Origin: a virus
IMG/VR virus record: IMGVR_UViG_3300025012_000029
Location: 1-64,000 of that record
DNA: 64,000 nt
Direction: 5' to 3' (one strand)
This document shows, one piece after another, positions 3,321 to 39,108 of the stretch. The translations under genes and the position numbers were made by a program. The notes below the pieces were generated by a model. That model worked only from the letters and a program-made list of their open reading frames with translations, searched no databases and was not told where the DNA came from. Each line of letters begins with the position of its first letter. Within the stretch, counting starts at the first letter, position 1.

Positions 3321-3355
3321 TTGTTAATCCTCCAATGTTTTCTTCCAAAGAGTTT

Positions 3356-5534: not shown

Positions 5535-5540
5535 AGTATT

Positions 5541-5569
5541 ACTATACGCTGACTGAATATAAATGTCAA
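5541..5569 (-). promoter_or_regulatory. Sigma70-like promoter
   Basis: On the - strand: TTGACA (5569-5564, perfect -35), a 17-base spacer, TATAGT (5546-5541, five of six for -10). The predicted start of transcription falls at or next to the ATG at 5534. Confidence 0.55.
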
Positions 5570-5611
5570 TAGAGAATTTATGAGACAGAAAAGACACAGG
5601 GGGGTTAACTC

Positions 5612-5932: not shown

Positions 5933-6009
5933 TAATAGACCCTCCAAGGAATGAGATGATTTAAAGTAACTAGGAAGAATAAAACTATTATGTCTCTGAA
6001 ATTAATTTA

Positions 6010-7593
6010 TCATACTTCAACTATCGCGACAGACGTTGAGAGTAGAGTTCCAGCAGCACTTGCGGCATTTTGTAACGAACATCGAACAACTTTAAAAGGA
6101 TCAATAATGCCCTTTTCCATCATATTACATTCTTCATTTTTTGATATATCATATCCAAAATTCCAATCATTTGGCGTATTTAATATATTTTGAAGAAGAA
6201 CGTCAGCGCTCAGTCCGGCATTGCTAGCAATTTTCATAAATGGTTCTTTGACAGCGCGGCGAATTATATCAACACCATGACGCTGAGATTCATTTTCAAT
6301 TTCTATATTATCTAAAGCTAACGAAGCACGTACTAACGCACATCCGCCACCAGAAACAATTCCTTCTTGTTGAGCCGCATTTACTGCTTCTAGCGCATCT
6401 TCAACTCTGTGCTTCTTTTCAATCATTTCAACTTCGGTAGCTCCACCAACTTTTATGACAGCTATTCCGCTCGACAACCGTGTAACTCTATCTTGTATGC
6501 GTTCACACGCTGATATGTCGCTTGTAATTTCTATTTGATGCTTTAAAGAATCGATTCTTTCTTGTATTTTATCTTCTCTCCCGGACGCTGAAGAAACAAT
6601 TGTGGTAGCAAATTTGCTGGACTCCACAATTTGTGCCGTTCCTAAATCAGCCAATTTTATTTGCTTGAGATTAATACCAGAATCTCTACTAATAAATTTT
6701 GCTCCAGTTGTTAAAGCGATATCATCTAAAATATTTCGTCTTTCTTCTCCATACCTCGGAGCTTTGATAGCGCATACTTTTATATTGCCCTTCAGCGTAT
6801 TCATAATGAGAGCGGCCAATGCCTGTCCTTCTACTTGTTCAGCAATTATCACAAAAGATTTTTCAGCTCTCGAAACAAGTTCAAGTGCTGGTAAAATCTC
6901 CTCGATTGTACTAATATTTTTGTCCGTCACCATCACGAGACAATCTTCATATCGCATTACTCCTCGGCGCTCATCAGTTATGAACGCATTGGCAATTAAA
7001 CCAGAATCAAAAGAAAAACCCTCCGACACATCTAAAATAGTTTCTGACGTTCTTCCTTCTTGAATGGTTATTGACCCGTCTTTGCCGATTTTATCAACAG
7101 CAATGCCAATCAATTCCCCTATTGCTTTGTCTCCATTTGCACTAATGGTTGCTATTTGTACTATTTGTTCAATAGATGATATTGGTTTTGAGTGTTTTTC
7201 AACTTCCTTTACAATCAATTCAACTGCTTTATCTATTCCATTTTTAAGGTCTATTGAAGAATCGCCCGCTGTGATGTAGGATTGAGCCTTCTGAAAAATA
7301 GCATTGGCAATAATAATAGAAGTTGTGGTGCCATCACCTGCTTGCGCTACCGTCGATTCGGCCGCTTGTTTGATAATTTGGACACCCAGGTTTTCAAATG
7401 GATCCTCTAATTCAATTGCCTTAGCACAAGTAACGCCATCTTTTGTTATTAACGGTTTAAAATTTTTTCCCTTGATTATGACTGTTCTACCTTTCGGACC
7501 TAAAGTGCTACCAACTGCATCAGCGAGAATATTAACCCCTCTTAAAATCTTATCGTTCAGGGTTTTATTTGAATCTATCAACTTCACAAACAT
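6010..7593 (-). CDS. groEL: Phage-encoded GroEL-type chaperonin
   Basis: A full-length group I chaperonin of about 527 residues with the ATP-binding signatures STLGPKGRTV and GDGTTT (near residue 88), and the conserved catalytic Asp in RVEDALEAV. The C-terminus ends in VAIVEV without the Gly-Gly-Met tail of bacterial GroEL. It folds proteins inside a ring and normally needs a GroES-like lid; a candidate lid is encoded at 30388-30663. I chose the second in-frame ATG (7593), which has AAAGG eight bases upstream; two codons more are possible. Its start overlaps the end of the methyltransferase gene. Chaperonins are known in several jumbo phages. Confidence 0.95.
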   Translation of the reverse strand: MFVKLIDSNKTLNDKILRGVNILADAVGSTLGPKGRTVIIKGKNFKPLITKDGVTCAKAIELEDPFENLGVQIIKQAAESTVAQAGDGTTTSIIIANAIFQKAQSYITAGDSSIDLKNGIDKAVELIVKEVEKHSKPISSIEQIVQIATISANGDKAIGELIGIAVDKIGKDGSITIQEGRTSETILDVSEGFSFDSGLIANAFITDERRGVMRYEDCLVMVTDKNISTIEEILPALELVSRAEKSFVIIAEQVEGQALAALIMNTLKGNIKVCAIKAPRYGEERRNILDDIALTTGAKFISRDSGINLKQIKLADLGTAQIVESSKFATTIVSSASGREDKIQERIDSLKHQIEITSDISACERIQDRVTRLSSGIAVIKVGGATEVEMIEKKHRVEDALEAVNAAQQEGIVSGGGCALVRASLALDNIEIENESQRHGVDIIRRAVKEPFMKIASNAGLSADVLLQNILNTPNDWNFGYDISKNEECNMMEKGIIDPFKVVRCSLQNAASAAGTLLSTSVAIVEV

Positions 7594-8369
7594 CTCCATT
7601 GCCTTTCAGGCATAATAAGAACTTCTTTAGAAGTTTTATTTTTAGACATACCATATTTCCACTCTGGTGTCAAGATTTTACATGATCCGTACATATCTCT
7701 AACAAATTCACAATCATTATAGGATAATATCCAATTGTCGCGCGTCAACAATAATTGATTCAATTTTTGATGATCAAAATCTTTGTGTAAATTTCCTTTA
7801 ATTCCGTACAAATTTGATTTTTTTAGCGCATACGGAGGATCACAATACAGCCATTTGTCGCCATGTAATGGTATTGAATCAACAAAATCCATTTTCTCCA
7901 CTGAAACGTTTCTCATATCAAAACTTCTTATTTTCTCAATAGAATTTCTCGTGAACCTTGGGTGTCCCGTCGAGGCGCCACCAGATAATGTTGTGCCCGA
8001 AAAACTACAACGATTTAATATAAAAAATAAAGCAGCAGTCGTGATGGCATGATTTTGTTTTTCTTCAAACTCAATCAACTTTTTTTGAAATGAATAGAAA
8101 TCTTCTGGACCAGAAAGTGGATAAAACATTTCAATTGTTCTAACAAGCATTTCGGGTTCATTTTTCACAGTTTTCCAAAACAAAACTAAACAGTGGAAAT
8201 TGTCATAACCCCATATTTTTACACCCCGAGAAGCTAATTCGAATTCAACGCCTCCACCGCCGAAAAATGGAGAACATAACTCTTTTAGATGAAATGGAAA
8301 ATAATCTGCTATTATTCTGGATGCGCGCGATTTACCGCCACAATATCTTAATAATGTTTTTTGCGGCAC
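7584..8369 (-). CDS. dam: DNA adenine N6-methyltransferase, D12 (Dam) class
   Basis: A 261-residue protein with the D12-class AdoMet motif FFGGGGVE (near residue 35), the catalytic DPPY (residues 177-180), and the N-terminal KTLLRYCGGKSR typical of Dam/T4 Dam. It methylates adenine at N6 in double-stranded DNA, most likely GATC-type sites, though the target is not proven. The length equals that of T4 Dam. The start codon is GTG; no ATG lies upstream before a stop. It probably protects phage DNA from host nucleases or acts in regulation. A second, unrelated adenine methyltransferase is at 16100-16633. Confidence 0.9.
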   Translation of the reverse strand: MPQKTLLRYCGGKSRASRIIADYFPFHLKELCSPFFGGGGVEFELASRGVKIWGYDNFHCLVLFWKTVKNEPEMLVRTIEMFYPLSGPEDFYSFQKKLIEFEEKQNHAITTAALFFILNRCSFSGTTLSGGASTGHPRFTRNSIEKIRSFDMRNVSVEKMDFVDSIPLHGDKWLYCDPPYALKKSNLYGIKGNLHKDFDHQKLNQLLLTRDNWILSYNDCEFVRDMYGSCKILTPEWKYGMSKNKTSKEVLIMPERQWRCL

Positions 8370-17109: not shown

Positions 17110-17690
17110 TTTTCCTCCAATAATTTTATTAATTCAACGTCATTTCGTTGATAAAGTGGATGAACAGGTCGTCCATCTTTTGTTTTACGGAGACAGTATA
17201 GCTTATCTGGGTGCCACATTGTCAAGAACTTTAATACCTTTGTTTCTCTTTCTTTTGACCATTTCATTGCTCCCCATGCACAAATTATTTTGTCCGCTTC
17301 GGATGATAATTTCGTTATCCATAAATCATTTTCCGGAAGTCCAATTATATCAATACCTATTTTCTCAGCATTTAACATATCTTTTGGATTTGTTGCTCTA
17401 TACGCATAAATGTTGGCAACCTTCACGACATTAAATCCCCAACGAACGGCATAACCAAAACATCTTCTCACAGTTGGATCAAAAACGTTTTCGTCAGCGG
17501 TACTAGGATTGAGCATTATGAATAATACAGTCTTCTTTTCCTCATCAGGAAGACTCCAGTCCCTCGATAACACATAACGATATGTTTTATTTGGGCTAAA
17601 TTCAGCAGTTCCCTTCATATGAGGAGGAATAATATTATTTTTTTCGCCAGATAACTGGATATTCAAATTCGAGGTACTGTCTGTTTCCAT
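17106..17690 (-). CDS. DUF1643 family protein
   Basis: About 194 residues from the ATG at 17690 (the frame is open to a TTG at 17735, which lies inside the neighbouring gene). It matches DUF1643 by TYRYVLSRDW, FIMLNPSTADENVFDPTVRR, ANIYAYRATNP, CAWG, and GRPVHPLY. The family is common in phages and bacteria; the function is not known. It overlaps the upstream small gene and dut. Confidence 0.75.
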   Translation of the reverse strand: METDSTSNLNIQLSGEKNNIIPPHMKGTAEFSPNKTYRYVLSRDWSLPDEEKKTVLFIMLNPSTADENVFDPTVRRCFGYAVRWGFNVVKVANIYAYRATNPKDMLNAEKIGIDIIGLPENDLWITKLSSEADKIICAWGAMKWSKERETKVLKFLTMWHPDKLYCLRKTKDGRPVHPLYQRNDVELIKLLEEK

Positions 17691-17895
17691 GAATAAACCA
17701 CCACACTTTCCATTTATTTTTCCTATATCCTTCAATAATGTTTGGCATTTGCTCTATCCATTCTGGGAAAATATCTATTAGTTTTCCATTGGACATTTCT
17801 TTCGAAGACCATTTTAATGGTGTAGAAATAGAATCGTTTATCAACTTATAAATTTCTCCATCATTCATGACATAAGATTTTATATTATTTTCCAT
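17635..17895 (-). CDS. Small hypothetical protein
   Basis: An 86-residue protein rich in Trp and aromatic residues in its C-terminal half. It begins just after the last polymerase fragment gene, and its end overlaps the DUF1643 frame. No family recognised. Confidence 0.45.
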   Translation of the reverse strand: MENNIKSYVMNDGEIYKLINDSISTPLKWSSKEMSNGKLIDIFPEWIEQMPNIIEGYRKNKWKVWWFIHGNRQYLEFEYPVIWRKK

Positions 17896-17899
17896 ATCT

Positions 17900-18895
17900 T
17901 CATCCTATTAGTTGTAGATTTTTATTTGGCCAATTTACAGAAAAACCATATTTCTCATCGAATTCAAGACGAGAAACGTACGGCCTGTTAAATAAAACAG
18001 TATCATTTTCTCTCGGACTCCAACATTTAATTTTAATATCTTTTGATGAAGCTCCATCGGTTACAAATAATTCCCAGTACATTCGATTTGTTTTAGTCAT
18101 TTTTTTGTCAATTCGCCTAGGAACAAACCAAACCAATGGACGTTCTGGATTAAATTCAGAAATAGGAGGAATGTTCTTGGCTTCTAATTTAGTCATCACC
18201 TTCTCATCGATAAATAATGAGATTGGAAACATGCTGGTAAGTTCAGCCATAATTAAAACTTTTTCTTCGTCTGTGAAATCTGGTTCATTCTTATATTGTT
18301 CTATCTTCGCATACATTTCTAGTCTGGATTTAGGTCTGTCAAAGACAGTGCTCATCCAAAAATGGCGAAGATGATTGAAGTTGTTGTTCATTAATTTGTT
18401 ACAGGCTCCACTACGAATCAGAACGTCCAAACATTTTTTGTTCAATTTTTGATATTTGACTTTAGGATTGAATAACAAATCTTCAACTGTTTTGAAAGGA
18501 CGATTTTCAATTATCTGTTCTGTTGCCTTAGAACCAAAACCCTTAATTGATGTCAATGGCTGGATGAGCGTTTTACCAGTTTTGGCCGGAAGCCATTCTG
18601 TTCCAGAAGTATTTACATCTACATCGGCAATCTTATATCCTATATTCTTAACCATACTCATAGCAGCGGCTCTTGTTTTTTCTGGTTCTTCGTTGAGATA
18701 AGAACATAACCACTCAGAGGGATGATAAGTTAAAAGATGGGCACATTGGAAAGAAATGATGCTGTAAGAGATAGCATGACTATTCGAAACAGAAATGTCG
18801 TTGGCAAAAAACGAATGTTCTTCGTGTTCTACTTCAATGTCATAAGTCTCATCTTCTCCAACAGGTATTACTTCAATAATGTCTTCTTCTCGCAT
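17900..18895 (-). CDS. dnaE: DNA polymerase III alpha, C-terminal fragment, with IntC of a split intein
   Basis: Residues 1-38 are an intein C-part: block F-like YDIEVEHEEHSFFANDI, ending SVSN. Residue +1 is Ser39, followed by the DnaE sequence HAISYSIISFQCAHLLTYHP, which in intact DnaE follows FNK (family 'FNKSHAxAYxxxSYQTAYLK'). The remainder carries the helix-hairpin-helix region (IKGFGSKATEQI) and ends early; tau- and clamp-binding regions of bacterial DnaE appear to be missing. It should be joined in trans to the product of 19893-21440. The start overlaps the intervening homing endonuclease gene by 28 bases. Confidence 0.9.
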   Translation of the reverse strand: MREEDIIEVIPVGEDETYDIEVEHEEHSFFANDISVSNSHAISYSIISFQCAHLLTYHPSEWLCSYLNEEPEKTRAAAMSMVKNIGYKIADVDVNTSGTEWLPAKTGKTLIQPLTSIKGFGSKATEQIIENRPFKTVEDLLFNPKVKYQKLNKKCLDVLIRSGACNKLMNNNFNHLRHFWMSTVFDRPKSRLEMYAKIEQYKNEPDFTDEEKVLIMAELTSMFPISLFIDEKVMTKLEAKNIPPISEFNPERPLVWFVPRRIDKKMTKTNRMYWELFVTDGASSKDIKIKCWSPRENDTVLFNRPYVSRLEFDEKYGFSVNWPNKNLQLIG

Positions 18896-19860
18896 AAATG
18901 TTCTTTTACTTTCTCAATGACTTTCTCAATGTCTCTTTCTATTTCAGAAACCCAAATACGTAAATAACTCCAACCATTTTTCAATAAAAATACATTTTTA
19001 TTTTTATCATTTACAGCATTCCTTTTCTGGCAGGGGAACTTTAGAGAAAAACCTTCCTCTTTGTTAGAATGCCAGAAATCTCCATCAACCTCAACAGCAA
19101 TCTTCCATTCTGGAAAGGTAATGTCTATTGTATAAAAACCAAATAAAAACTGACTAACTATTTCTTCTTCTGGAAAATGTTGTTGTAATAAAGAAAACAA
19201 CAATAGTTCTGGTTTAGAAGTTTTACATCTATTATTTGCTATGTGTTCGGCAGTTTTTCTACGCAACAAGTTTTTTGTTTCTTCTGTGTGGTTGTGTCCT
19301 TTGTGCGGTTTTCCTGTTTTACACCACTGTGAGTTTATTTCTTTTATTTCTTTTGCCTTTTCTTCTCCATAAAGTTCAACAAGAGTTTTTCCACGACATC
19401 GCAAAGCATTTTTTTCCCATGCTCCACTTTTTTCAACATTATCTAACCACTTCTTTTTCTTCTCTGGATCATTTAGAACTTTATGAATGGGGTTATTTTT
19501 TCCTATTCTTCCGTCTGCTATTCGTTTCATAGACTCGCTAGTATTTTTTGTAAGTCCCTTGTTCCAAATGGCAGGGAAACATTTATTTGAACAAAACTTT
19601 TTATCACACCTAGTTTTTACTTTTATTCCAACTATTTCAAATAGGATGGCGTTTATCAGTCTCCTAGAATCTATTTTCATCTCCTTACCACAAGTAACAC
19701 AATTAGTATTCAAGTTATTTATAAATACTTTTTTTCTATTTTCCACTTCATCAATAAGTTCTTGATGTTTGGCATAGTCATAAACATGTCTTTTGAAAAC
19801 AGACGCAGAATATTCATTACTACAAATAGGACACAAAACTTTTGTTCTACATTTGGGCAT
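18868..19860 (-). CDS. Free-standing homing endonuclease, Vsr/EDxHD-like with zinc fingers
   Basis: A 330-residue protein. The N-terminus has zinc-binding CPIC...H...H and CVTC ... CSNKC clusters (residues about 9-95). The middle has DNA-binding NUMOD-like segments (GKNNPIHK, HTEETKNLLRRK). The C-terminal nuclease domain reads IDITFPEWKIAVEVDGDFWH and ends with NGWSYLRIWVSEIE, the Vsr-like fold described for endonucleases in fractured genes. It sits exactly between the IntN-bearing and IntC-bearing polymerase genes, so it probably cuts intein-less alleles of this dnaE site and spreads the element. Confidence 0.85.
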   Translation of the reverse strand: MPKCRTKVLCPICSNEYSASVFKRHVYDYAKHQELIDEVENRKKVFINNLNTNCVTCGKEMKIDSRRLINAILFEIVGIKVKTRCDKKFCSNKCFPAIWNKGLTKNTSESMKRIADGRIGKNNPIHKVLNDPEKKKKWLDNVEKSGAWEKNALRCRGKTLVELYGEEKAKEIKEINSQWCKTGKPHKGHNHTEETKNLLRRKTAEHIANNRCKTSKPELLLFSLLQQHFPEEEIVSQFLFGFYTIDITFPEWKIAVEVDGDFWHSNKEEGFSLKFPCQKRNAVNDKNKNVFLLKNGWSYLRIWVSEIERDIEKVIEKVKEHLCEKKTLLK

Positions 19861-19892
19861 ACAATAAATAGTTCTGTGTGATAGAATAAAAC

Positions 19893-21440
19893 CTAGTTTT
19901 TTACCACAACTTTCAACTTTCTGCTTATTATCTCTTCCAAAGTTTTCATTCCTTCACAAGTTTGTAGTTTGTGATCAAGCGTGCAAGTCAAGGTTTTCCC
20001 AGAAGCAGTTTTTATTTTGTAAAGTTTTTTCTTGCCATTTTGGTAGACGCTCTTTATTTTCACAAAACCATTTACACTATTGACTTCTTCTCCAATTTTT
20101 ACATCTTTTATTTCTTTTTTACCCTCTCTGGTTTCTACTAAACTGCTTCCGTGAATACACTTGTTAAACGCGTAGCCGTTAAATGCCACCATATCTTGCC
20201 ACCATTTTTCGGCGTCATCCTTTGTCATCCCTTTTTCTGCACATCCATCAATAAATTTATTATGCAATCTATTTTTTACTTCTGCTTCTTTACCAGTTCC
20301 TTTTTTTGTCAACACTTTTCTCAACAAATTGGCATCATTTAGAGAAATATCTTTTCCAAGACTGTGCACCAAAGATGCTAACTGTTCTTGGAAAATAAGC
20401 AATCCGTAAGTTTTCTTTAAACATTTTTCCAAAATATCATTTTCAAACACTATTTTTTCAGGAAATTCCTTAAGAGAAAGATATCTTTTATCGACTTGCG
20501 CGCTCAAACAACCAGGTCTCCACACACTGGTTAAAACAGACAAATCGATCAAGCTCCTAGGTTTTGCCTGCTTTGTAAAATGCTGCATGCCTTTTGATGC
20601 GTCAAATTGAAAAATTCCTGCCCATTTTCCCTTATGAAAGACATTTTCATATACTTTTTGATCGTCAAAATCGATAACATTCGGGTGAAGCTTTGTATTA
20701 TAGAATTCTTTGATGTCAACGAAAGTAGGATTATCTTTTCCTTCTTTTTTCAAAATGAGTTTGATACAGTTTTCAAACATCCTTAAGGTTCCGAGTCCTA
20801 AAATATCAAATTTAATAAAACCCATTGGCTCTAAGTGTCTTACGTTTTGTCCTTCCGACCAAGGAGACTGTCTCACTCCTCCACTATAAATAAGAGGCAT
20901 ATGAGAAGGAAGATCTTCGCCTACAAGCAAACCTCCAGCATGTCTGCCACATGATCTAACTTGTCTGAAAAGATTCGCAACATGCTCTTCTATTTGTGGG
21001 TATTTTCCTAGAAATTTCCTAAATGACTCACTATATTTTAACACTTGCTCAAATGTTGGAGAAGTTGGAAGTACGCCAGATTTAATCCCCAACTCTTTTT
21101 TAATTTCTGGAACTGATTCCAAAAACATTATTGTTGTAATATCGTTAACTTCCTTGTATGGAATACCATAAAACTTTGAAATATCTTTAATGAGAGATTT
21201 CAATTGTAATGTATTCCAATTGGAAATGGAAACAACATTATCTTCTCCCCACATTTCAACAATGGTTCTCTTTACTTCATCGTTGTTGCCAACGTCAAAG
21301 TCAATATCTGGCATATCAGCAGATTTATCATTTCTAACATAGAAAGAAATGTTTTTATTTCTTACGATAGTTTGGGTTTGCGTAGGGATTGTTTGAATGA
21401 CAAACTTTCCTTCAATAGTTTCAACTTTTTTTATTAGCAT
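19893..21440 (-). CDS. dnaE: DNA polymerase III alpha, middle fragment, flanked by an atypical IntC-like head and a canonical IntN tail
   Basis: A 515-residue protein. Residues 1-38 (MLIKKVETIEGKFVIQTIPT ... FYVRND) occupy the place of an intein C-part but lack the His-Asn end and a Cys/Ser/Thr at +1. Then come the polymerase active-site motif MPDIDFD (residues 43-49), the palm and fingers (GILGLG-type LGLGTLRMFE, WRPGCL, FQEQL), to GYAFNK. At Cys428 a canonical IntN begins (CIHGSSLVETREG; block B GKTLTCTLDHKLQT), 88 residues to the stop. This part should trans-splice with the protein at 17900. It carries the catalytic Asp pair, so activity depends on its joining to the N-terminal fragment. 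Confidence 0.9.
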   Translation of the reverse strand: MLIKKVETIEGKFVIQTIPTQTQTIVRNKNISFYVRNDKSADMPDIDFDVGNNDEVKRTIVEMWGEDNVVSISNWNTLQLKSLIKDISKFYGIPYKEVNDITTIMFLESVPEIKKELGIKSGVLPTSPTFEQVLKYSESFRKFLGKYPQIEEHVANLFRQVRSCGRHAGGLLVGEDLPSHMPLIYSGGVRQSPWSEGQNVRHLEPMGFIKFDILGLGTLRMFENCIKLILKKEGKDNPTFVDIKEFYNTKLHPNVIDFDDQKVYENVFHKGKWAGIFQFDASKGMQHFTKQAKPRSLIDLSVLTSVWRPGCLSAQVDKRYLSLKEFPEKIVFENDILEKCLKKTYGLLIFQEQLASLVHSLGKDISLNDANLLRKVLTKKGTGKEAEVKNRLHNKFIDGCAEKGMTKDDAEKWWQDMVAFNGYAFNKCIHGSSLVETREGKKEIKDVKIGEEVNSVNGFVKIKSVYQNGKKKLYKIKTASGKTLTCTLDHKLQTCEGMKTLEEIISRKLKVVVKN

Positions 21441-22368
21441 TCTCTTCTCTTATTTTTGTTGTTCTATTTTTTACAGATGAAAATGTCCTGTAAGGAAAAA
21501 GCGTCTCTTGTATTTGTCTTACGGACATTTTACCATAATAAGTTCTCAATAGCAAGTCTTCTTCTTTTTCCCATTTTACTTCAAAATGCTTTTTCAGTCC
21601 TAATAAGTGTATTCTTTTTTCTATTCCTTCGTAAGTTCTGTAAGGTAAAAAAGTTTCCATTATTTTTCTACAAGACATTTTACTATGATTTTGTTTTAGA
21701 ATGTCTAGTTCTTCTGGAGTCCATTCCAAATAAGTTCCATAATCTTGTCTTATGGTTTTTACTTTATCCCATTTTCTATTCAGTTTTGGAACTTCTATTT
21801 TATTCAAGTGTTCTAATAACAAAAATGCTTTTCTTTTATTACAATAAAAAGTATAAACTGATTTTGTTTTTCTTAGATGTCCTATTTTTTCATTTAGTAT
21901 TTCTTCAAACCTTTTTATTATCCACTCAAGAAAAACTTTTGTTCCAACAATAGACAAATCAATGGAGTTTGTTTTTTTGTTAGAATAAAGACATCCATCA
22001 CCATCTATGTATCCCACAATAAAGGCATCAATAAAATCTCTATTTGTTATTGGCGGGAAAGCACAAAGAAATGTTTTGTTCGGAATAATGTTGTACTTCT
22101 GTTCAAGATCAAAACATACTTCTTTTGAAGAAAATGAAACAGACGAATAAAGGTACCCATCTTTATTCTCAAATATCCTAACAGGACAAGATAGTTCCAC
22201 AAACTTGGCAAATGATTCTAAGTGAGAATGGTCTTTTCGAGATAGACTCATAGAGAAACCACCCTTTCCAGAAACAGACCCATCAGCAGTAATAAAACCA
22301 GCCCAATAACAAGATACAATGTCAACTTCCGAAAAACAGTTTTCGTTCACAAAATACTTTTTTACCAT
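21421..22368 (-). CDS. Free-standing LAGLIDADG homing endonuclease with Myb-like repeats
   Basis: A 315-residue protein with two LAGLIDADG motifs, AGFITADGS (near residue 24) and VGYIDGDGC (near 119), so it acts as a monomer. The C-terminus has two SANT/Myb-like helix repeats (WTPEELDILKQNHSKMSCRK and WEKEEDLLLRTYYGKMSVRQ) that likely add DNA contacts. It lies between the N-terminal and middle polymerase genes, overlapping the latter by 20 bases. It is a different endonuclease class from the one in the second break, so the two breaks arose independently. Confidence 0.9.
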   Translation of the reverse strand: MVKKYFVNENCFSEVDIVSCYWAGFITADGSVSGKGGFSMSLSRKDHSHLESFAKFVELSCPVRIFENKDGYLYSSVSFSSKEVCFDLEQKYNIIPNKTFLCAFPPITNRDFIDAFIVGYIDGDGCLYSNKKTNSIDLSIVGTKVFLEWIIKRFEEILNEKIGHLRKTKSVYTFYCNKRKAFLLLEHLNKIEVPKLNRKWDKVKTIRQDYGTYLEWTPEELDILKQNHSKMSCRKIMETFLPYRTYEGIEKRIHLLGLKKHFEVKWEKEEDLLLRTYYGKMSVRQIQETLFPYRTFSSVKNRTTKIREENANKKS

Positions 22369-22375
22369 AACATAA

Positions 22376-23974
22376 CTAGTCTTTGTCTGGAGAAACTATT
22401 TCATCGTTTTCTAAAACGTTTGACGCTTTTTCCCACTGTTTTGTTCCATTTCTGCGTATTTTACATTGCGTATTGGGAGTTAGTAAAATCACTTTGCCAT
22501 CAGTGGTTTCTATTTTTATCATTTTACTTATTTTCGAAAAACTATTTGATTCTCCTAACGAATATCCTACATCATCTTCGGCATCGGAACGAAGGAATCT
22601 CTCAAACATCAAACCCCATTTTATTGGATTGACTTGGGTGATTCCAAGAACATAACTGACAAGGGAACCGGCGCCCGAACCTCTCCCACAGCCGGTAATC
22701 TGTAATGAATTTGCTTTATCAGCGATGGACTTCATTGTCAAAAAGTATCTGCTGAATCCTCTTCCTTGAATGACTTTGAGTTCTGTTTGAAGTTTCTTCT
22801 CGTATTCAGGTCTCTCTGTTGGGGACAAAGATAGTTTTTTTAGTCCCTCTTCTGCCATTTGTGTTAGAGCACTGTCATCAGTCATTCCATCAGGAACAAC
22901 AAAAGAAGGAAGACGAATAGTATTATCAGGCATAAAATCTTCAATCATGTTAAAAGCGATATGGTGTGCATTTGTAATAGATTTTAGGATCAAGTCAGAG
23001 TCATATTTTATACCATTCATAGAAGAATATTTTTCATATGCCTCCATCATTTGATCGCCATTCTTGGGATAAAGTTCATATCCAACTTCATCGATCGAAT
23101 CGGGCAAACTCTTTTGTTCTTTTTTGTTGAATCCTGGACGGAGGTTCTTATATAAGATTCTGTCTTTCCAAAGTTCAGGACGCGGATAATGACTATCTGC
23201 TGTTGATATTAATGGTAAATCATATTCTTTGGATAGTTGAATGATGTATTGATTGATATCGTGTTGTGCTGGAATATTATTCCATTGTAGTTCTCCAAAC
23301 CATCTGTCATTAAAGATCTTTTGCATTCGTTCTGTGGTATTGCGCATCGCATTAAGAATGATATCAGAGCCTTTTTCTAGATTTTCCCAATAATCTTGGG
23401 CATAAACTCCACCAAGGCAAGCACTGCTAGCAATTACTCCTTCATTATGTTTCTGTAAAAGTTCGTAATCAATTCGTGGAAACTTATAGAAACATGAAGG
23501 TTTAAAACTTTCAGAAATAAGACTGAAAATATTATTTAGCCCTATTTGGTTTTGGGCAAGAAGAATCAAATGTGCGCGAGCATTAAGAGGATTTTTCTTT
23601 TTCTTCGATGCTTCTTCGTCTTCAACAACTGTACCACCTTGTTCATCTTCTTCTTTTACTTTATCTTTGTTTTGTTTTTCTAGAGCTTTTGCTGATTTAA
23701 GCTCGCGCCAGTCTGCAAGAGATGGAATGAAGTATGCTTCAACTCCATATATAGGCTTAAAATTCTTGCCATCTGCTTTTAGTTTCTTAGAGTACAGGAT
23801 CTGATAAGCCGTGCCGTTCATATTCCCATGATCACTTAATGCCAGAGAATTCATTCCGTTATCTATTGCATAATCAATTGATTCGTTTGGATATCCAATA
23901 GCATCGAATGGACTTCCACATGTGGAATGAGCGTGAAGTCCGACAAAAGGAATTTTACTTTCTTTTTTTGACAT
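22376..23974 (-). CDS. dnaE: DNA polymerase III alpha, N-terminal fragment, with intein-like C-terminal tail
   Basis: A 532-residue protein. The PHP domain opens with GLHAHSTCGSPFD and continues through DHGNMNG, ADSHYPRPELWKD. The first palm motif is GCGRGSGAGSLVSYVLGITQ (residues 428-447), followed by FERFLRSD (residues 457-464). After that a 64-residue tail replaces the expected PDIDFD motif. It contains an intein block B-like stretch (TTDGKVILLTPNTQCKI then WEKAS and ENDEIV) but no Cys/Ser that clearly starts an intein block A. An acidic KE-rich insert is near residue 105-125. The catalytic Asp motif is on the next gene, so this product alone cannot polymerise. Confidence 0.9.
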   Translation of the reverse strand: MSKKESKIPFVGLHAHSTCGSPFDAIGYPNESIDYAIDNGMNSLALSDHGNMNGTAYQILYSKKLKADGKNFKPIYGVEAYFIPSLADWRELKSAKALEKQNKDKVKEEDEQGGTVVEDEEASKKKKNPLNARAHLILLAQNQIGLNNIFSLISESFKPSCFYKFPRIDYELLQKHNEGVIASSACLGGVYAQDYWENLEKGSDIILNAMRNTTERMQKIFNDRWFGELQWNNIPAQHDINQYIIQLSKEYDLPLISTADSHYPRPELWKDRILYKNLRPGFNKKEQKSLPDSIDEVGYELYPKNGDQMMEAYEKYSSMNGIKYDSDLILKSITNAHHIAFNMIEDFMPDNTIRLPSFVVPDGMTDDSALTQMAEEGLKKLSLSPTERPEYEKKLQTELKVIQGRGFSRYFLTMKSIADKANSLQITGCGRGSGAGSLVSYVLGITQVNPIKWGLMFERFLRSDAEDDVGYSLGESNSFSKISKMIKIETTDGKVILLTPNTQCKIRRNGTKQWEKASNVLENDEIVSPDKD

Positions 23975-24224
23975 TAATGTTCTTTGCTTTCTTATCTCCC
24001 TCTAAGATAGAGGGCTCAATTGTTTGAAGAGTCTTCGAATTGGAGAAACCAGGTATGGAGTAAATTTGTGAATCCCAGAAATAATCACAGCTAAATTGTT
24101 TTAATACTAAACAATAGGGCGGATCGACAAAAAATGATTGAAGTCTTCCGGGTTTCGCTATATGTCTATAGCATATATCTTTTTTGGGACAATTATTGCC
24201 AGGGCACATGGTAATATCAGGCAC
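23955..24224 (-). CDS. Hypothetical Cys-rich protein
   Basis: An 89-residue protein with the pattern MCPGNNCPKKDICYRH near the N-terminus and a later CDYFWD, which together could hold zinc or an Fe-S cluster; the C-terminus is basic. It starts with GTG at 24224, or with ATG five codons in. It overlaps the start of the polymerase N-terminal gene by 20 bases, so the two are probably co-translated. A candidate promoter lies just upstream. Confidence 0.5.
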   Translation of the reverse strand: MPDITMCPGNNCPKKDICYRHIAKPGRLQSFFVDPPYCLVLKQFSCDYFWDSQIYSIPGFSNSKTLQTIEPSILEGDKKAKNINVKKRK

Positions 24225-24230
24225 AAGACA

Positions 24231-24259
24231 ACACTACATTAAGAACGGACAATTGTCAA
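24231..24259 (-). promoter_or_regulatory. Candidate sigma70-like promoter for the dnaE cluster
   Basis: TTGACA (24259-24254), a 17-base spacer, TAGTGT (24236-24231, weak -10). The -35 overlaps the perfect palindrome GACAATTGTC, a possible operator. The -10 ends only about seven bases before the GTG start of the downstream gene. Confidence 0.35.
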
Positions 24260-24261
24260 AA

Positions 24262-24519
24262 TTAAACGTCCATTTCTTTGCTAAAATATCGCTCCAGTGT
24301 TCGTAAGCGCTGTATACATACAAACGTACTATAAGCAGACACCAATCCAATCGATAATGATAAAAATCCCAAGGAAATATCAATAATTGGCATCATTGTC
24401 CACGGAACCAACCTAGATTTTTCTATAATTGAACCCACCTCATATCCACACAGCCACAATACAATTGAAGATGTTAGTAAATTATCGATAAATATAAATA
24501 AATTTTTCATCTGCTTCAC
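24262..24519 (-). CDS. Hypothetical two-pass membrane protein
   Basis: An 85-residue protein with two hydrophobic segments (residues about 7-28 and 44-66) and a charged C-terminal tail. ATGA overlap with the upstream gene. Function unknown. Confidence 0.5.
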   Translation of the reverse strand: MKQMKNLFIFIDNLLTSSIVLWLCGYEVGSIIEKSRLVPWTMMPIIDISLGFLSLSIGLVSAYSTFVCIQRLRTLERYFSKEMDV

Positions 24520-32420: not shown

Positions 32421-35400
32421 TTAAGATCCACATGAACCTCCTTTATTCATAGCGCATGCGTCTCCATATTCTAAATATGTTTCTCCAACATGCTTCATAG
32501 CAAGAGAATATTTTACTGGGGTAAGAGGCTGTCCACCACGAGCACCATCTGGGTAACAGGTAATTCCTCTCAATTTTGGAAGATAATTTATTAAAATATC
32601 TCCAAATTTTCTAACAGTATCTTCATTGTTATCAGCAGAACCCCATGGAGGAAGGTTGATAGTGGAACTGATCCCATGGTCAACAAATCGTTGTACCCAA
32701 GCTTGGAATTCTATTCTTCGTTCAACGTTCTTTGCTAAATCATACGCATCTTCTATTGAATCTGGATCGAGGTTATTTTTTTCTATTAGACGTTTTGCAG
32801 TAGGATCCAACACATATTGATATTCAATCAATTCTGGTCCTTTTTTATAACGTCTTTTATAACTAACGCAGAAAATTGGCTCAATGCCCGTTGTAGTTTC
32901 CGACACAATTCCTATAGTTCCATTTGGAGCAATTGCTCTAGTTTTAATCGGACTAGTTAATTCCCACTTTTCAGCATATTCATGAGCAATTTCTGTACTA
33001 GTGCTGTAAATTTTCAAATACTGTTCTAGTTCTGGGTCGGGTCCGTACTTTTTTCCTCTCATAAGCAACCATTCATGAATGCCCATTAATCCGAGTCCTA
33101 GGCGCCTATTCTTCGAACGAACTTGATCTACTTTGGCATAAGGAACGTCTGAATAGACAGTGCCAGCCAACAAAAAACAAGTCCCTAATTCTACTAGGTC
33201 TTTCATTTCTTCTAGCGAAGATACTCTGGCAAGATTAATACTGCCAAGATTGCAAATATCTGAATCATCGCGCGATGTTACCTCAGTGCATTGACCAGTC
33301 AAAACACCATCAAAAACTCCAGTATGATTTTTAGGTTCATTAAAACAATAAACATTTTCTTCTATACCTCCTTCAGAAACTGATACTACAAAAACAAATT
33401 GACTAGCGTCTCTGTTTGGAGATTTGTCAAACGACAAACGTTCACATTTTAAACCCAATTCTTTCAAATTTTGTATTTGTTGCGCGCCGATTAGCAATCT
33501 ATAAAGATCTTTACAATAATATTCTTTTAGTCCTCCTTCCGCATCGGGAAGCATTCTAAATCCAGCTTTGTGTCCTAATGTTACTTTACTATTTATTCCT
33601 ATCGTAGAAAGCATCTTCTGAGCATCTAAAAGAAAATTTTTATCAACGGAGCCTATTTGGCATCCGCCTTCTTTTAATTCAGTTCCATCTCCATCTATCA
33701 ATCCAGCCAACCAATTTAATTTTCCATTCAAGTTCCACTCAAGTGGAACAAAAGATTTCAAATATTTTTCAAAATCTGGTCTAACAGTCGTTTTACTATT
33801 GCTGCTGTGAAAATTTTTATTTTCTTTTATCGAAAGGCGACTCAAACAGCAATATTTTGTGTCGTACACTGAAAAGAAATTGTAATCGTCCATTCCTTCG
33901 GCAGAAAGGAAGCCTTGTGTGTACGCTTCTTTTGCATCAACATCCTCTCCTTCTTTTATTATTGGAAATGTCCCTTTAATCAATTTCATTCCTGGCTGAA
34001 GATTGTAGGCTTCCACTTTTTCAGAAGCTCCATGATAATCTTTTGAAATAATAAATTTATGATATTCAGTGCATCTCAACACCCTTCCGTCACTTAATAC
34101 AACATCAACCATTGGTTGCATTCGTCCAGTTAGTTTTATTTCAACATTTGACCATTCGAACCCGTTCCATACGTCAATTGACTGGTTAACCAATGATGAA
34201 ATTGGTCGATAACCATTTTTAGTTAGAATTTCCGTTTCGCCCGAAACACATGCATTCCTCAGGGTTTCACCGGAATTATCACCAATATCTACTGAAAATC
34301 CTGGCTCACCAGTTTCTAGCATATTTCTGACGACCAACCAATAAATTGCTTGAGAATGGGAATGTTGTGGATGTTTCTCGTCATAGAAGGCTTTAAAAAA
34401 AACATCATCTAATAGAACAGAAATATTCGTCATATCCAATGGAGCGGGAAAATTAAAATCCTTCTTTTTTAAAGATTTGACATCCTCAGTCCAATCTTTG
34501 AGTTTAACAAATTTATATATGTCGGCATGGCTCCAATTTAGTCCAGACCAAATTGCCGAGTTATGCACAAGATATCCATTGCAGAAAAATTGATTTTTGT
34601 TTTCTACTTCAATATCATATGTTTCAACGATTCTTCCTTCCTCGATTCCTAAAATTTTAATAGGGGTAAAATTTAAATCTTTTTTAATAACACGTTCTAT
34701 CATTTCAATACTAACGGCAACATTTTTGTCATGATGAAGATTTCTAGGTCTTTTTTCAAATGATGCATTAATCAAACTGCCATCAAAAGAATAAGAAAAT
34801 TGTTCTTTCGTTCCAGAATTTTCATAAATGTCCCCTTTCAAAATAAAAGATCCAATTAGTTTTTTAAGTTTTAGAAGTTGCTTGGTATTACAAACATTTA
34901 ATTGATATAAAGATTTCCATTTTCCAATTTCTTTTCTTACAAGTTTAATTCTGGAAACAATTCCCAATGACGCCAATAGTGATTGTAATTGATTTAAGAA
35001 TTCTGGATAAATCGACGATGCAATATTTATTGGGCGAGACGATAAACTTCCATCTGAATCAACAATTCCAGCAATGTATGCACACCTAATTTCTGGCCTC
35101 GCACACATTATACATTCTGGTACGTCAATTGAAACATTTGGTTTTTTAAACCACGATTGCAAATAAGTAGCCAACTGCACAGACGAGCATTTAACATTCC
35201 ATAGTTTTCCATCACCTGGTGATGATATAACGTTTACTCCAAATCTTTCCAATTGTTTTATAGCTTTATCTTTAATTTCTGGGTAATCAAAAGAACAAGC
35301 AATACTCACTCGGCCGTGAAGTTTGTTTTGTTTATCTTTGCCCAAATAAGCATAGCCATCTCCGTGAATCAACCCCAACAACCAAGCTATACCAGAGTCT

Positions 35401-36248
35401 AGTTCGGGAATTTTTATATCTATTATAGACGTGCAATGAATTGATTTTTCATACGAAAAATTTGGTAATTTTGTAGGACCGAATTCCAGCAATTTTCCAT
35501 TAAAAATCAATCTATCTTGGTTCGAAAGGTCTTTGGCTTTTTTCCACTCAAATTCTCCGAAACAATTAGTCAACACAGCCACTCTGTGATTTTCAGTGCA
35601 TTCAAAAAATCCAGTTTGAGTTTTAATTTTTATAGTTTTTTGCTGTCCTTGATCAAATATGTTCAACACTTTTTCAAATCCATCAAATGTTTGAACCAAA
35701 TCTTCAGTTGTTATATCTTCTATCTTTTTTAACCCATACAAAGTATGAACTAGAGAGCCTTTCGGGAGACACCTTCTCGATCCTCCCTGCATAACTCCTC
35801 TACCAACTTCATTAATCATCTGCATAAGTGCCGTTGGTCCGGTTGCCTTGCCTCCGGTTTTTCTAATTGGTTTCCCTTCCGGTCTTATTTTTGAATAATC
35901 AACTCCAATTCCTGCCCCTGTCATTAAAGCCATCGACGACTTATGTAATAAATCCGACCAACCTTCACGAGAATCTTCTACACTCAGCATAAGACAATTT
36001 TGAGTTTGGTGATATGGGCGCCCAGAGGCATATAGGTATCGTCCTCCAGGAATGAATTTTCTATCTCTTATTGCTATATGAACTCTTTCAGATAGAGACT
36101 TTGAAGCGTTAACTGACTTCATAACATGTTTTGCCACTCTGTAGGATATGTTATCCCAATTTTCCAAAGTTCCATCTTTTAATGGATGTGCATATCGCTG
36201 CTCTGTTATTGTTTTCGCAAAAACACTCATATCGTTTTCAAAATTCAT
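32421..36248 (-). CDS. nrdJ: Class II (adenosylcobalamin-dependent) ribonucleotide reductase with two inteins
   Basis: A 1275-residue precursor. Exteins: residues 1-159, 564-666 and 987-1275, together about 551 residues. Visible motifs are PGGRYLYASG, Cys85 in QTQNCLML, CTEVTSRDDSDICNLGSINL, APNGTIGIVSE, and a Cys-rich end (CAMNKGGSCGS), the redox pair of class II enzymes. It reduces ribonucleotides with a B12 radical and works with or without oxygen. Intein 1 spans residues 160-563 and intein 2 residues 667-986; both carry LAGLIDADG endonuclease domains. The gene is bounded by the helicase C-part (one-base overlap) and a small unknown gene. Confidence 0.93.
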   Translation of the reverse strand: MNFENDMSVFAKTITEQRYAHPLKDGTLENWDNISYRVAKHVMKSVNASKSLSERVHIAIRDRKFIPGGRYLYASGRPYHQTQNCLMLSVEDSREGWSDLLHKSSMALMTGAGIGVDYSKIRPEGKPIRKTGGKATGPTALMQMINEVGRGVMQGGSRRCLPKGSLVHTLYGLKKIEDITTEDLVQTFDGFEKVLNIFDQGQQKTIKIKTQTGFFECTENHRVAVLTNCFGEFEWKKAKDLSNQDRLIFNGKLLEFGPTKLPNFSYEKSIHCTSIIDIKIPELDSGIAWLLGLIHGDGYAYLGKDKQNKLHGRVSIACSFDYPEIKDKAIKQLERFGVNVISSPGDGKLWNVKCSSVQLATYLQSWFKKPNVSIDVPECIMCARPEIRCAYIAGIVDSDGSLSSRPINIASSIYPEFLNQLQSLLASLGIVSRIKLVRKEIGKWKSLYQLNVCNTKQLLKLKKLIGSFILKGDIYENSGTKEQFSYSFDGSLINASFEKRPRNLHHDKNVAVSIEMIERVIKKDLNFTPIKILGIEEGRIVETYDIEVENKNQFFCNGYLVHNSAIWSGLNWSHADIYKFVKLKDWTEDVKSLKKKDFNFPAPLDMTNISVLLDDVFFKAFYDEKHPQHSHSQAIYWLVVRNMLETGEPGFSVDIGDNSGETLRNACVSGETEILTKNGYRPISSLVNQSIDVWNGFEWSNVEIKLTGRMQPMVDVVLSDGRVLRCTEYHKFIISKDYHGASEKVEAYNLQPGMKLIKGTFPIIKEGEDVDAKEAYTQGFLSAEGMDDYNFFSVYDTKYCCLSRLSIKENKNFHSSNSKTTVRPDFEKYLKSFVPLEWNLNGKLNWLAGLIDGDGTELKEGGCQIGSVDKNFLLDAQKMLSTIGINSKVTLGHKAGFRMLPDAEGGLKEYYCKDLYRLLIGAQQIQNLKELGLKCERLSFDKSPNRDASQFVFVVSVSEGGIEENVYCFNEPKNHTGVFDGVLTGQCTEVTSRDDSDICNLGSINLARVSSLEEMKDLVELGTCFLLAGTVYSDVPYAKVDQVRSKNRRLGLGLMGIHEWLLMRGKKYGPDPELEQYLKIYSTSTEIAHEYAEKWELTSPIKTRAIAPNGTIGIVSETTTGIEPIFCVSYKRRYKKGPELIEYQYVLDPTAKRLIEKNNLDPDSIEDAYDLAKNVERRIEFQAWVQRFVDHGISSTINLPPWGSADNNEDTVRKFGDILINYLPKLRGITCYPDGARGGQPLTPVKYSLAMKHVGETYLEYGDACAMNKGGSCGS
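33291..34250 (-). other. NrdJ intein 2 (320 residues, ends in Gln)
   Basis: It starts at Cys667 (CVSGETEILTKNGYRP) after LRNA and ends VFDGVLTGQ before Cys987 (CTEVTSRDD). The last residue is Gln instead of Asn and the penultimate is Gly instead of His. LAGLIDADG motifs: LAGLIDGDGT (clear) and GFLSAEGM (degenerate). The insertion point is the conserved N-(P/A)-C-T-E motif, where other NrdJ inteins are known. Confidence 0.88.
34560..35771 (-). other. NrdJ intein 1 (404 residues, LAGLIDADG)
   Basis: It starts at Cys160 (CLPKGSLVHTLYG) after GGSRR and ends LVHN before Ser564 (SAIWSG). Block B is TGFFECTENHRVAV; endonuclease motifs are LLGLIHGDGY and IAGIVDSDGS; block F is YDIEVENKNQFFCNGYLVHN. 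All splice residues are canonical, so it is probably active. Confidence 0.9.
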
Positions 36249-36709
36249 TAAACAATTCCTCCATTATTTTCTTTATATTTCTTGTATTTTGCTCTCATGC
36301 GGCGTTTTTGCTCTTCCACGTCCACTAACGATGAAATATCTTTACGAGGATCAAAATCTCCCAAAATACGTATATCTACATTTGATGGATCCATAAAAAT
36401 ATTAAATGTCATTCCATCTGGACCATTTCTATTTTTGCAGACAGACAATCTTCCTGTATTTTTGTTTTTATCTTCTTGCGTTCTCGCAAGTCCAAGAGTA
36501 AGGTATGAGCCAAAATTTTTATTTAGTGCTTCTGATGTTTGTTCCATTTGTACGGTATTTGAACTCAAACCTGAATTATGGGAATATATATCATTTGCAA
36601 AAAAATAGTGATGCTTTTCCAAACATATATCGATTGTATCTTCTTCGTCACATTCTTCAATGTTTGTTATTTCCATCAAATCAAAATCGTTTAAATTAAG
36701 TTTATCCAT
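36248..36709 (-). CDS. Replicative helicase (gp41/DnaB), C-terminal fragment with IntC
   Basis: Residues 1-45 form the intein C-part (IDICLEKHHYFFANDIYSHN), with canonical His-Asn end. Ser46 starts the C-extein, SGLSSNTVQMEQTSEALNKN, followed by GLARTQEDKNKNTGRLSVCK, the C-terminal RecA-fold region of gp41/DnaB helicases (sensor and arginine-finger area). It should be trans-spliced to the product of 37727-39058. The first residues overlap the homing endonuclease gene by eight bases; the last overlaps nrdJ by one. Confidence 0.92.
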   Translation of the reverse strand: MDKLNLNDFDLMEITNIEECDEEDTIDICLEKHHYFFANDIYSHNSGLSSNTVQMEQTSEALNKNFGSYLTLGLARTQEDKNKNTGRLSVCKNRNGPDGMTFNIFMDPSNVDIRILGDFDPRKDISSLVDVEEQKRRMRAKYKKYKENNGGIV

Positions 36710-37727
36710 TTAAAAACTCTACTATCTTATCAATTGTACCGTAAGGATCTTTTTTGTAATTTTTATCGTTAATCCTTAGTGTTGAAAATCCTCTTTTTGT
36801 TAATATTTCATCTCTTTCCTTATCCTTGTCTTCGTTGTTTTTATGCCAATAATTTCCGTCAAATTCAATAATTTTATTTTCATATAAAAAATCTAATGAA
36901 TAAAACTTAATATATTTTCCATCTTTATATATTTTAATTATTTTTTCCCCGTTACATTCTTTAAAAAATGTCATCTCTTTCTTCAAATCTAACCTTTGCA
37001 CAACGTCCCAAAATAATTTCTGAGAAATTTTCGAAAACCCAACACTATCTCGATTAGATGCTGCCTTCTCAGAAAGAGTACGCATTTTGTCTTTGTACTG
37101 ATCCCATTTTTCCTTTCCTAATGTCTCGCCAAAATCTTTCACAAATTTTTCAAGGGAAAAAGCATATTTTTGTTTTTCTGATTTTTTATTCCATCTAATT
37201 AAAGCTTCTTCTTTGCCGTGCTTTATAAACAAACTTTCATGAGAAAGTCCATTATCCCATTTTCTGTCAAGTTTTCTTTTTTCAATAGAACTTTTCCATT
37301 TTTCTAAATAAGAAGAATGTTTTTCTTTTGCCGCATCCTCTCCTATTCTTTCTGAAAGATTCTGCAAATTGTGCCAATTTTTTTGTTTTATTAAATTTTC
37401 ATAATATTCGATACCGTGTTTTTTAATAATAATTTCTTTATTATTCTTACGCTTGTTTGTCTGCGAATTCAAGATTTCTTCCCATCTGTCGCCATAACGT
37501 ATTTTGTATACTTCTTCTGTCATACAATTTCTTCCAAATTTTCTAGATGCTTCAATTCTCTCTAGCCAATCCCCATCGACATCATATTTTGTAAAATTTA
37601 ATATCAAGAATTTCTTATTTTTAAAATCTTTTCTTGACAAATTTTCATAGATTTTTTTTATTTGAAAAATTTGCTCATCGCTTAATGACAAATCTCGCAA
37701 CCATAAATAATTTTTTATAAAGTTCAT
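36702..37727 (-). CDS. Free-standing Vsr-like homing endonuclease between helicase halves
   Basis: A 341-residue, Lys-rich protein. The C-terminal nuclease reads KFYSLDFLYENKIIEFDGNY then WHKN, and ends RGFSTLRINDKNYK, like the Vsr/EDxHD endonucleases found in fractured genes. The middle holds repeated helix segments with KHG(K/I)E and ExWDxYK patterns, possibly DNA-binding repeats. It overlaps both helicase pieces by a few bases, which is typical for a gene inserted as a unit into a former intein. Confidence 0.85.
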   Translation of the reverse strand: MNFIKNYLWLRDLSLSDEQIFQIKKIYENLSRKDFKNKKFLILNFTKYDVDGDWLERIEASRKFGRNCMTEEVYKIRYGDRWEEILNSQTNKRKNNKEIIIKKHGIEYYENLIKQKNWHNLQNLSERIGEDAAKEKHSSYLEKWKSSIEKRKLDRKWDNGLSHESLFIKHGKEEALIRWNKKSEKQKYAFSLEKFVKDFGETLGKEKWDQYKDKMRTLSEKAASNRDSVGFSKISQKLFWDVVQRLDLKKEMTFFKECNGEKIIKIYKDGKYIKFYSLDFLYENKIIEFDGNYWHKNNEDKDKERDEILTKRGFSTLRINDKNYKKDPYGTIDKIVEFLNG

Positions 37728-39058
37728 TATTTTTTTATCAAAAATTTATCCCCAATTTTTAATCCAGACTCTAAAGACTTATCCCCACTATCCGTTGGAA
37801 AAATATGTTTTTTAGAAACTTTCACAGACAATCCGTTTTTTAGCGTTATTTTATAGACTTTTTGGCGAGAGGAAAAAATATCAATAATTTTTTCGTAACC
37901 ATAAACAGTTTTTGTCATCATGCCTATCTTAGATTGTCCGATTTCAATTGTATGTTCTTTTTGATCTTCTCCTAATATATAAATAGGAGTATCAACAGAA
38001 AAACACCTATTTGTTTGCGAAGCGGTCCAGCCAACTATTTGATCTTCTTGACAAACTGCTTCAAACTCATCATAAGTTTCACCTATTTCATAACGTAATT
38101 CTTTTCTTATAGAAGAAGATTTGAGGAGATCGAGATAGTCTAGTTCGATCATATCCGGGATAAATCCTTGACTTTTAAGACGAGAAAGATGATTTTTTAC
38201 TGTCATCATCGATGCGCTCTTTTTTGGATACTGTTTGATTATTAATTGACCAGTGATTTTAGTCAACTCTTCTAAAACTTTTTCTTTGTGGTTGCGCAAT
38301 TCATCGATAGGTATTCCAGTCAAACAAGAATCAAATCTAAGTCCAATTACTTCTGCCGATAATTCAAGGGTGTAATAAACAACATTTTGTCCTCGTTTTA
38401 GTGCTTGTACGCCCAAATGAACGAGGCATAAACTTTTACCTGCGCCTGTCGGCGCTAAAATCAAACCATATTCGCCTCGACCTAAGCCACCGCTTGTAAG
38501 TTCATCAAGTCGATCCCACCCCGTCGGAATGGGATTACGAACATTTTCAACGTAACGTTTTTCGAAATCTTTGATAAAATCATGCCCAGTGTCAATTTCT
38601 CCTCCAGCTTTTAGAGCAGTATTGATAACTTTGCTAATTTCGTCAAACGAATTCGTTTTGAGGAGAGAAGCAGATTTAATCATAGCTTCGTGCAACTTTT
38701 GTTTTCTGCAGAAATCTAACGCTTCATTCTGAATGAAATTTCCATCCTCAATATGATCGGAAGCTAACATGCGGGCATAAAAGTCTCTTACTTGTTTTTG
38801 AAGAATTTCATTCTCTTTTTCTAAGGATGTCCGAAGAATTATCTCCATTGTATCTCTACTAGGATGAACTTTATATTGTTTTTTATAATCAAAAATTCTT
38901 GAAACAAATCCTTGGAGATATCTTGATTCAAAATATTCAACATTTAATACTTCAATCATTCTATCGGCAAAGACTCTATCATCCAATATTAAAAAAGCAA
39001 GTCTCTCTTGAAATGAGCGGCCGAAGGTTGAAAAAGTCGGAGCATCAACTATATTCAT
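37727..39058 (-). CDS. Replicative helicase (gp41/DnaB), N-terminal fragment with IntN
   Basis: A 443-residue protein. It has an N-terminal helical domain, a Walker A motif LAPTGAGKS (residues 201-209), Walker B-like MIELDYLDLL, and ASQTNR. Cys352 then starts an intein N-part of 92 residues (CFSVDTPIYILGE; block B GLSVKVSKKHIFPT), like the gp41-type split inteins. The helicase moves 5'-3' on the lagging strand as a hexameric ring. A promoter (39080-39108) lies upstream. Neither half alone has a full ATPase motor domain, so splicing should be essential. Confidence 0.93.
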   Translation of the reverse strand: MNIVDAPTFSTFGRSFQERLAFLILDDRVFADRMIEVLNVEYFESRYLQGFVSRIFDYKKQYKVHPSRDTMEIILRTSLEKENEILQKQVRDFYARMLASDHIEDGNFIQNEALDFCRKQKLHEAMIKSASLLKTNSFDEISKVINTALKAGGEIDTGHDFIKDFEKRYVENVRNPIPTGWDRLDELTSGGLGRGEYGLILAPTGAGKSLCLVHLGVQALKRGQNVVYYTLELSAEVIGLRFDSCLTGIPIDELRNHKEKVLEELTKITGQLIIKQYPKKSASMMTVKNHLSRLKSQGFIPDMIELDYLDLLKSSSIRKELRYEIGETYDEFEAVCQEDQIVGWTASQTNRCFSVDTPIYILGEDQKEHTIEIGQSKIGMMTKTVYGYEKIIDIFSSRQKVYKITLKNGLSVKVSKKHIFPTDSGDKSLESGLKIGDKFLIKK

Positions 39059-39079
39059 TATTTTCTCGATGGACGTAAA

Positions 39080-39108
39080 ATACTACCCTAAGTGAGAATT
39101 GAAGTCAA
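39080..39108 (-). promoter_or_regulatory. Candidate sigma70-like promoter upstream of the helicase
   Basis: TTGACT (39108-39103), a 17-base spacer, TAGTAT (39085-39080). The spacer end repeats a pattern found 27 bases upstream: ACTYAGGGTARTA occurs twice (ACTCAGGGTAAATA and ACTTAGGGTAGTATT), a possible operator pair. The ATG follows 21 bases after the -10. Confidence 0.45.

Follow-up and report, generated by a model that had tools for sequence, protein, structure and literature searches.

A putative splice-dead split Hint module at a homing endonuclease insertion in a phage dnaE gene

The window, positions 1 to 64,000 of the 201-kb virus record IMG/VR IMGVR_UViG_3300025012_000029, carries a dnaE gene that is broken immediately upstream of its catalytic PDIDFD motif by a free-standing homing endonuclease gene. 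At the break the first DnaE piece ends in an extra tail and the second begins with an extra head. Sequence homology and structure models suggest that tail and head are the halves of an intein-derived, splice-dead clamp, which probably joins the two DnaE chains noncovalently. The simplest account may be that of a split intein that lost splicing, kept association, was carried by the endonuclease, and was retained as a clamp.

The first dnaE break and its occurrence in other phages

The window dnaE consists of three pieces, all on the minus strand (22376-23974, 19893-21440, and 17900-18895), and each gap holds one free-standing endonuclease gene. The first break lies between FERFL and the catalytic MPDIDFD strand, a site at which intact relatives read FERFLRSDATDYPDIDYD or similar. 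Piece 1 (532 amino acids [aa]) contains the PHP domain and the first part of the polymerase domain (22589 to 23974; Pfam PHP and DNA_pol3_alpha). Directly after these follows the tail of about 70 residues (SDAED...SPDKD; 22376 to 22588, stop codon included), so that the C end of the piece reads FERFLR/SDAEDDVGYSLGESNSFSKISKMIKIETTDGKVILLTPNTQCKIRRNGTKQWEKASNVLENDEIVSPDKD and then stops (slashes mark junctions). The gene in the gap (21421 to 22368, minus strand) encodes a LAGLIDADG homing endonuclease of 315 aa with two C-terminal Myb/helix-turn-helix-like repeats and shares 20 nucleotides with the start of piece 2. Piece 2 opens with the 37-residue head (MLIKK...FYVRN; 21330 to 21440), the last residue of which is Asn; it reads MLIKKVETIEGKFVIQTIPTQTQTIVRNKNISFYVRN/DKSADMPDIDFD and continues as the extein with the PDIDFD motif and the finger domain (19893 to 21329). 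The frames are open throughout and the catalytic Asp motifs are intact. With a free-standing homing endonuclease between two open pieces and intact alleles in relatives, dnaE is an endonuclease-split gene; the sequence-only reading that first drew attention to this break overlooked that a homing endonuclease gene had made it and that the cassette is mobile (see below). Group I and group II introns were rejected, as Rfam gave no match up to an E value of 1 in positions 17500-24500.

The same junction is present in five other phage lineages: L166, L170 (also L169 and L239), L085 (also L242), L248, and L247. Tail and head are homologous across the lineages, and so is the endonuclease except in L085, where it has been deleted; orthologous endonucleases occupy the same dnaE site in L170, L166, L248, and L247. 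Searches with one window sequence at a time (tail, head, piece 1, or endonuclease) returned no close relatives, and only alignment searches anchored in the extein succeeded. An alignment joining the final conserved extein block to the window tail retrieved L085 (44% identity over 101 residues including the tail), the mirror search with the head retrieved L166 and L169/L170, and the endonuclease search retrieved L248 and L247. No relative was found when the L248 tail was searched against phage records or when the tail alignment was searched against bacterial and archaeal genomes. One large alignment combining intact and split genes placed the tails wrongly and was not used. The L247 contig stops within the endonuclease gene, so that its piece 1 and tail fall outside the contig; we therefore compared five tails (window, L166, L170, L085, and L248) and six heads (these plus L247). 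The L170 tail reads KGSLEGIISDNGKSKTKTKPVKIETDSGRSIFLTPGLEIKVKRSNKISYILAKNLEIGDEILVA, with related tails in L166, L085, and L248, and the L166 head reads MKITNITFLEEAERGIVPVPAGTSKTIEGIQVRN/TKDTNMPDIDYD, with related heads in the other lineages. A recognizable Shine-Dalgarno sequence precedes piece 2 in four of the five other lineages (GGAGG in L248 and L247).

The tail, the head, and their splice residues

Both its sequence and its predicted fold identify the tail as a truncated split Hint domain. In the PDB, a five-tail profile matched the TvoVMA intein (1.2e-4), the MjaKlbA intein (0.011), Hedgehog (0.19), and the PabPolII intein (0.37). The best of these matches covers intein residues 75-121, and because the profile aligns from residue 75, everything upstream, block A included, is missing or replaced. 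The tail thus lacks the first ∼40 to 58 residues of the Hint domain, the match starting at about residue 75 in inteins and at 43 in gp41-1. When the tail profile was run against all open reading frames (ORFs) of the sequences analyzed, the first nonmember was a canonical intein N-half with Cys1 and TADH in the dnaE of another phage, L244 (3e-9). When seven canonical intein N-halves were made into a profile, the window tail scored 24.1 bits versus at best 10.3 among its 2,000 shuffles, a likeness to inteins that is beyond chance, and all five tails outscored every one of their 2,000 shuffles. Together with the PDB matches, this confirms the original observation of an intein-like tail just before PDIDFD. 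AlphaFold2 predicted a five-stranded core for the L170 tail (predicted local distance difference test [pLDDT], 70-90); the top 15 structural rows were inteins or Hedgehog, all with low Z scores (best, 3.9). The L244 gene itself (2297-8126) has a canonical split intein at GYGRG/C and further inteins downstream, and it provides a splicing-competent comparison.

The window head could not be recognized from sequence alone, as 163 of 2,000 shuffles scored equally high against canonical intein C-halves, and in the PDB the head profile matched the DnaE extein motif but not a single intein. The L248 head, which ends in NGLLVHN, is recognizable as an intein C-half by sequence (0 of 2,000 shuffles), and the five other heads are homologous to it. 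This homology and a structure model suggest that the head is a Hint C-half. The model comes from one AlphaFold2 run on a single L248 chain, with stops read through and a one-base frame step inside the endonuclease, and its linker between tail and head is out-of-frame, partly nonsense, unrelated sequence. In the model the first strand of the head (pLDDT, 88) pairs with the tail. The structural matches that span tail and head are the PhoPolII mini-intein (Z, 8.7; 2.4 Å over 65 residues; model residues 23 to 420), 7oec (Z, 8.4), MsmDnaB (Z, 8.1; 1.6 Å over 55 residues), and gp41-1 (Z, 7.5), on residues 43-102 of which model residues 23-422 superpose. Z values below 8 may reflect a common arrangement; the best rows here belong to a single family and extend over tail and head alike. 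The proposal that tail and head might together form a Hint fold is thus supported in L248 by one low-confidence run. The Hint fold appears to be common to both pieces, but it is part of the fold only: the tail by sequence, and the tail plus the first head strand by model.

The residues needed for splicing are absent in all lineages found. No Cys1 or Ser1 was present at an alignable position in any of the five tails (S, K, A, K, and R stand directly behind FERFL(x)), and the earlier statement that no Cys or Ser clearly starts the tail therefore holds for the window and all homologous tails. Block B TxxH was likewise found in none of the five tails, which have TPNT (window), TPGL, SPEV, TPDM, and SPNL instead. 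The terminal Asn is kept in all six heads. It is preceded by R, R, R, N, H, and R, with His only in L248, and followed at +1 by D, T, P, P, R, and R, with Thr only in L166 and no Cys or Ser. No block F Asp was alignable. The window head had been described as lacking His-Asn and having Lys at +1; it does have Arg in place of His, but the Asn is present, and +1 is Asp with the Lys one residue further on. The features of a canonical class 1 split intein (Cys/Ser1 with block A, TxxH, His-Asn, and Cys/Ser/Thr at +1) are thus wanting at this junction. Homologues with Cys1 and Asn-Cys/Ser at the first break were sought, and none was found, which disposes of the concern that the splice residues had been misplaced. 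Class 2 (Cys+1) and class 3 (a Trp-Cys-Thr set with a block F Cys) were also ruled out, as none of the six heads contains a Cys. The heads of L248 and L247, two close relatives, agree at only 2 of their last nine residues (AVNGLLVHN versus VIRGITFRN) but are 89% identical over the first 27, and this is unlike the evolution of a working splice junction.

Selection and mobility

For the pair L170/L166, the proportions of nonsynonymous and synonymous differences (pN and pS) were 0.32 versus 0.78 in the tail and 0.25 versus 0.87 in the head, and the nonsynonymous-to-synonymous rate ratio (dN/dS) of the L248/L247 head was 0.14. The weakest case was the window head against L170 (pN, 0.52; pS, 0.59). 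Synonymous sites are saturated in most pairs, so the purifying signal comes from the closer pairs. As judged from these substitution patterns, tail and head are under purifying selection, with block G itself free to vary. The module is conserved rather than rotting, and none of the homologues found has the catalytic positions. Of the three options in the sequence-only reading, a decayed intein reduced to association of its halves and a split Hint module of an undescribed kind, taken together, appear to fit best; the remaining one, atypical splicing chemistry, gained no positive support.

In a tree of 68 dnaE sequences (one FastTree run), the split members did not form one group and were scattered among intact genes. 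One intact gene, L101, is an empty allele of L085: it has 95.6% nucleotide identity on both flanks, reads FERFLRKDATDYPDIDYD, and shows clustered differences from L085 beside the insertion site, as co-conversion predicts. The endonucleases of L170 and L166 are 73% alike versus 64-67% for DnaE. The scatter of the split genes and the 95.6% identical empty allele indicate a mobile cassette. The L085 endonuclease is reduced to its last 46 codons, which lie out of frame between tail and head; the gene is still split, and tail and head are open and conserved despite the deletion. Near the PHP domain, L085 dnaE is interrupted once more, by a canonical split intein that brings an endonuclease of its own (2865-4267; ASA/CLTGDS... 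and ...NGLLVHN/C). It too is absent from L101, making two polymorphic insertions in one dnaE.

The second dnaE break in the window is an ordinary split intein and served as the positive control for an intact junction. Its N-half begins with Cys (CIHGSS...) at the C end of piece 2 (about 19896-20159), and its C-half, in piece 3 (17900-18895), ends with SVSN/S (...FFANDISVSN/SHAISYS); its free-standing DUF559/Vsr-like endonuclease (18868-19860, minus strand), outside the first break, is mentioned for comparison only. A DnaB-like helicase gene (36248-39082, minus strand) is split by another canonical intein (CFSVDT... and ...FFANDIYSHN/S) with a free-standing endonuclease at 36702-37745. NrdA, a 1,280-aa ORF (32421-36263, minus strand), contains two contiguous LAGLIDADG inteins, the second of which ends in GVLTGQ/C, with Gln in place of Asn. 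A portal-like protein with two inteins is encoded around position 81090 of the record (G000:C1; L082). In the parts examined, dnaE, dnaB, nrdA, and the portal gene of this virus together hold seven or more insertions that are inteins or resemble them.

The proposed clamp, its alternatives, and known systems

Under the clamp reading, a homing endonuclease cassette derived from a split intein would have inserted at one fixed dnaE site, the FERFL-MPDIDFD loop, after which the polymerase would be made as two chains. The intein remnant would be a truncated Hint domain split between the C end of chain 1 and the N end of chain 2, having lost the His of block B, the nucleophile at +1, and block A together with the nucleophile in it. 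Most likely, the two pieces still find each other and cofold like split inteins, closing the palm as a noncovalent heterodimer. We infer that, in the cell, the tail binds the head and the chains stay unligated, and that the assembled polymerase is active.

Several points count against this interpretation. Among all members, those of the window diverge most in both tail and head (25-36% identity), and five of the six heads fail the shuffle test against canonical intein C-halves. The L248 model is of an artificial chain, with 11 rows, a mean pLDDT of 57, and a predicted template modeling score of 0.30, and the last 20 residues of its head have low confidence. The conserved Asn may be a relic of chemistry still used, or it may belong natively to the DnaE motif LNPERTSMPDID, and joining at FERFL(x)/...N/xxxxxMPD would restore the 6-residue loop of intact relatives, as a working splice junction would. 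Finally, the same phage has a family A DNA polymerase-like palm ORF (PHROG DNA polymerase; 43025-44224, minus strand), and consequently the window DnaE need not be the main replicase.

The halves could instead reassemble through their own palm interface, with tail and head as tolerated leftovers. Such an interface would be extensive, and Aeh1 nrdA, T4 gene 60/39, and phage 25 gene 43 behave in this way as far as is known (PMC2988022). However, leftovers would be expected to decay or be trimmed, whereas the Hint-like sequence persists past synonymous saturation and L085 retains tail and head without the endonuclease; we give this explanation perhaps one chance in a handful. Trans-splicing by an undescribed chemistry, working without the N-terminal nucleophile, the block B His, or the +1 nucleophile and perhaps via Asn, would be a fourth splicing route, spread by the endonuclease. 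The Asn in all six heads, the native loop that joining at it would restore, and purifying selection on the module are consistent with this idea, but neither junction has a conserved nucleophile, there is no block A to build the active site on the N side, block G differs between L248 and L247, whose heads are otherwise 89% identical, and Pro follows the Asn in two lineages. We consider it unlikely. It is more doubtful still that the Hint remnant only cleaves at its C terminus, cyclizing the Asn and trimming the head to leave a clean piece 2 fragment: the Asn is present in all six heads and L248 retains VHN, but five of the six heads lack the penultimate His, block G is variable, and no block F Asp can be aligned. 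A sequencing or assembly artifact, or a dead polymerase gene, is highly improbable even though the window comes from a single metagenomic assembly, and for the junction as such an artifact is refuted, because independent assemblies repeat the architecture in five other lineages, two of them in two samples each (L085 shows no difference from L242 over 8.2 kb, and L170 matches L239 at 99.95% identity), with open frames and intact catalytic Asp motifs.

If the clamp reading is true, a mobile intein gave up splicing and survives as glue, and the element breaks an essential gene at its catalytic center yet itself supplies the clamp by which the break is tolerated; this would explain the persistence and spread of endonuclease-split genes. 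The module would also be a small, naturally selected, nonsplicing split-Hint pair usable as a heterodimer tag. If the chains are ligated instead, the accepted view that splicing requires a nucleophile at each junction would be overturned. The literature searched gave no description of such a module; most subscription papers were outside the reach of that search, and novelty is provisional.

One known system is the fractured gene of the gp41-1, NrdJ, and IMPDH type, in which a canonical split intein is accompanied by a free-standing endonuclease. As in that type, the first dnaE break has the gene in two, an endonuclease ORF between, and Hint halves at the new ends. The gp41-1 type has Cys1, a TxxH-like block B, His/Ser-Asn, and Ser, Cys, or Thr at +1, whereas the first dnaE break has no block A and none of those residues; the canonical arrangement occurs in the window at the second dnaE break and in dnaB. 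The second comparison is with endonuclease-split genes whose products reassemble noncovalently, namely, Aeh1 nrdA/mobE, T4 gene 60/39 with mobA, and phage 25 gene 43A/43B; Aeh1 NrdA and the phage 25 gp43A/gp43B polymerase are active two-chain enzymes after endonuclease insertion (PMC2988022). As in the Aeh1 nrdA type, an essential replication gene is interrupted at a functionally critical place by a homing endonuclease that stands free, and no splice chemistry would be needed. However, the available part of PMC2988022 describes no Hint-derived tails, whereas the extra ends of dnaE are homologous to inteins and conserved across lineages. The third is with decayed or pseudogene inteins, for example, Arth_1007 of Arthrobacter FB24 (PMC3196547); like these, the module described here would be an intein that has lost splicing. 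Cases of that type are single remnants, whereas the dead form in dnaE recurs in six lineages, is under purifying selection, and is mobile.

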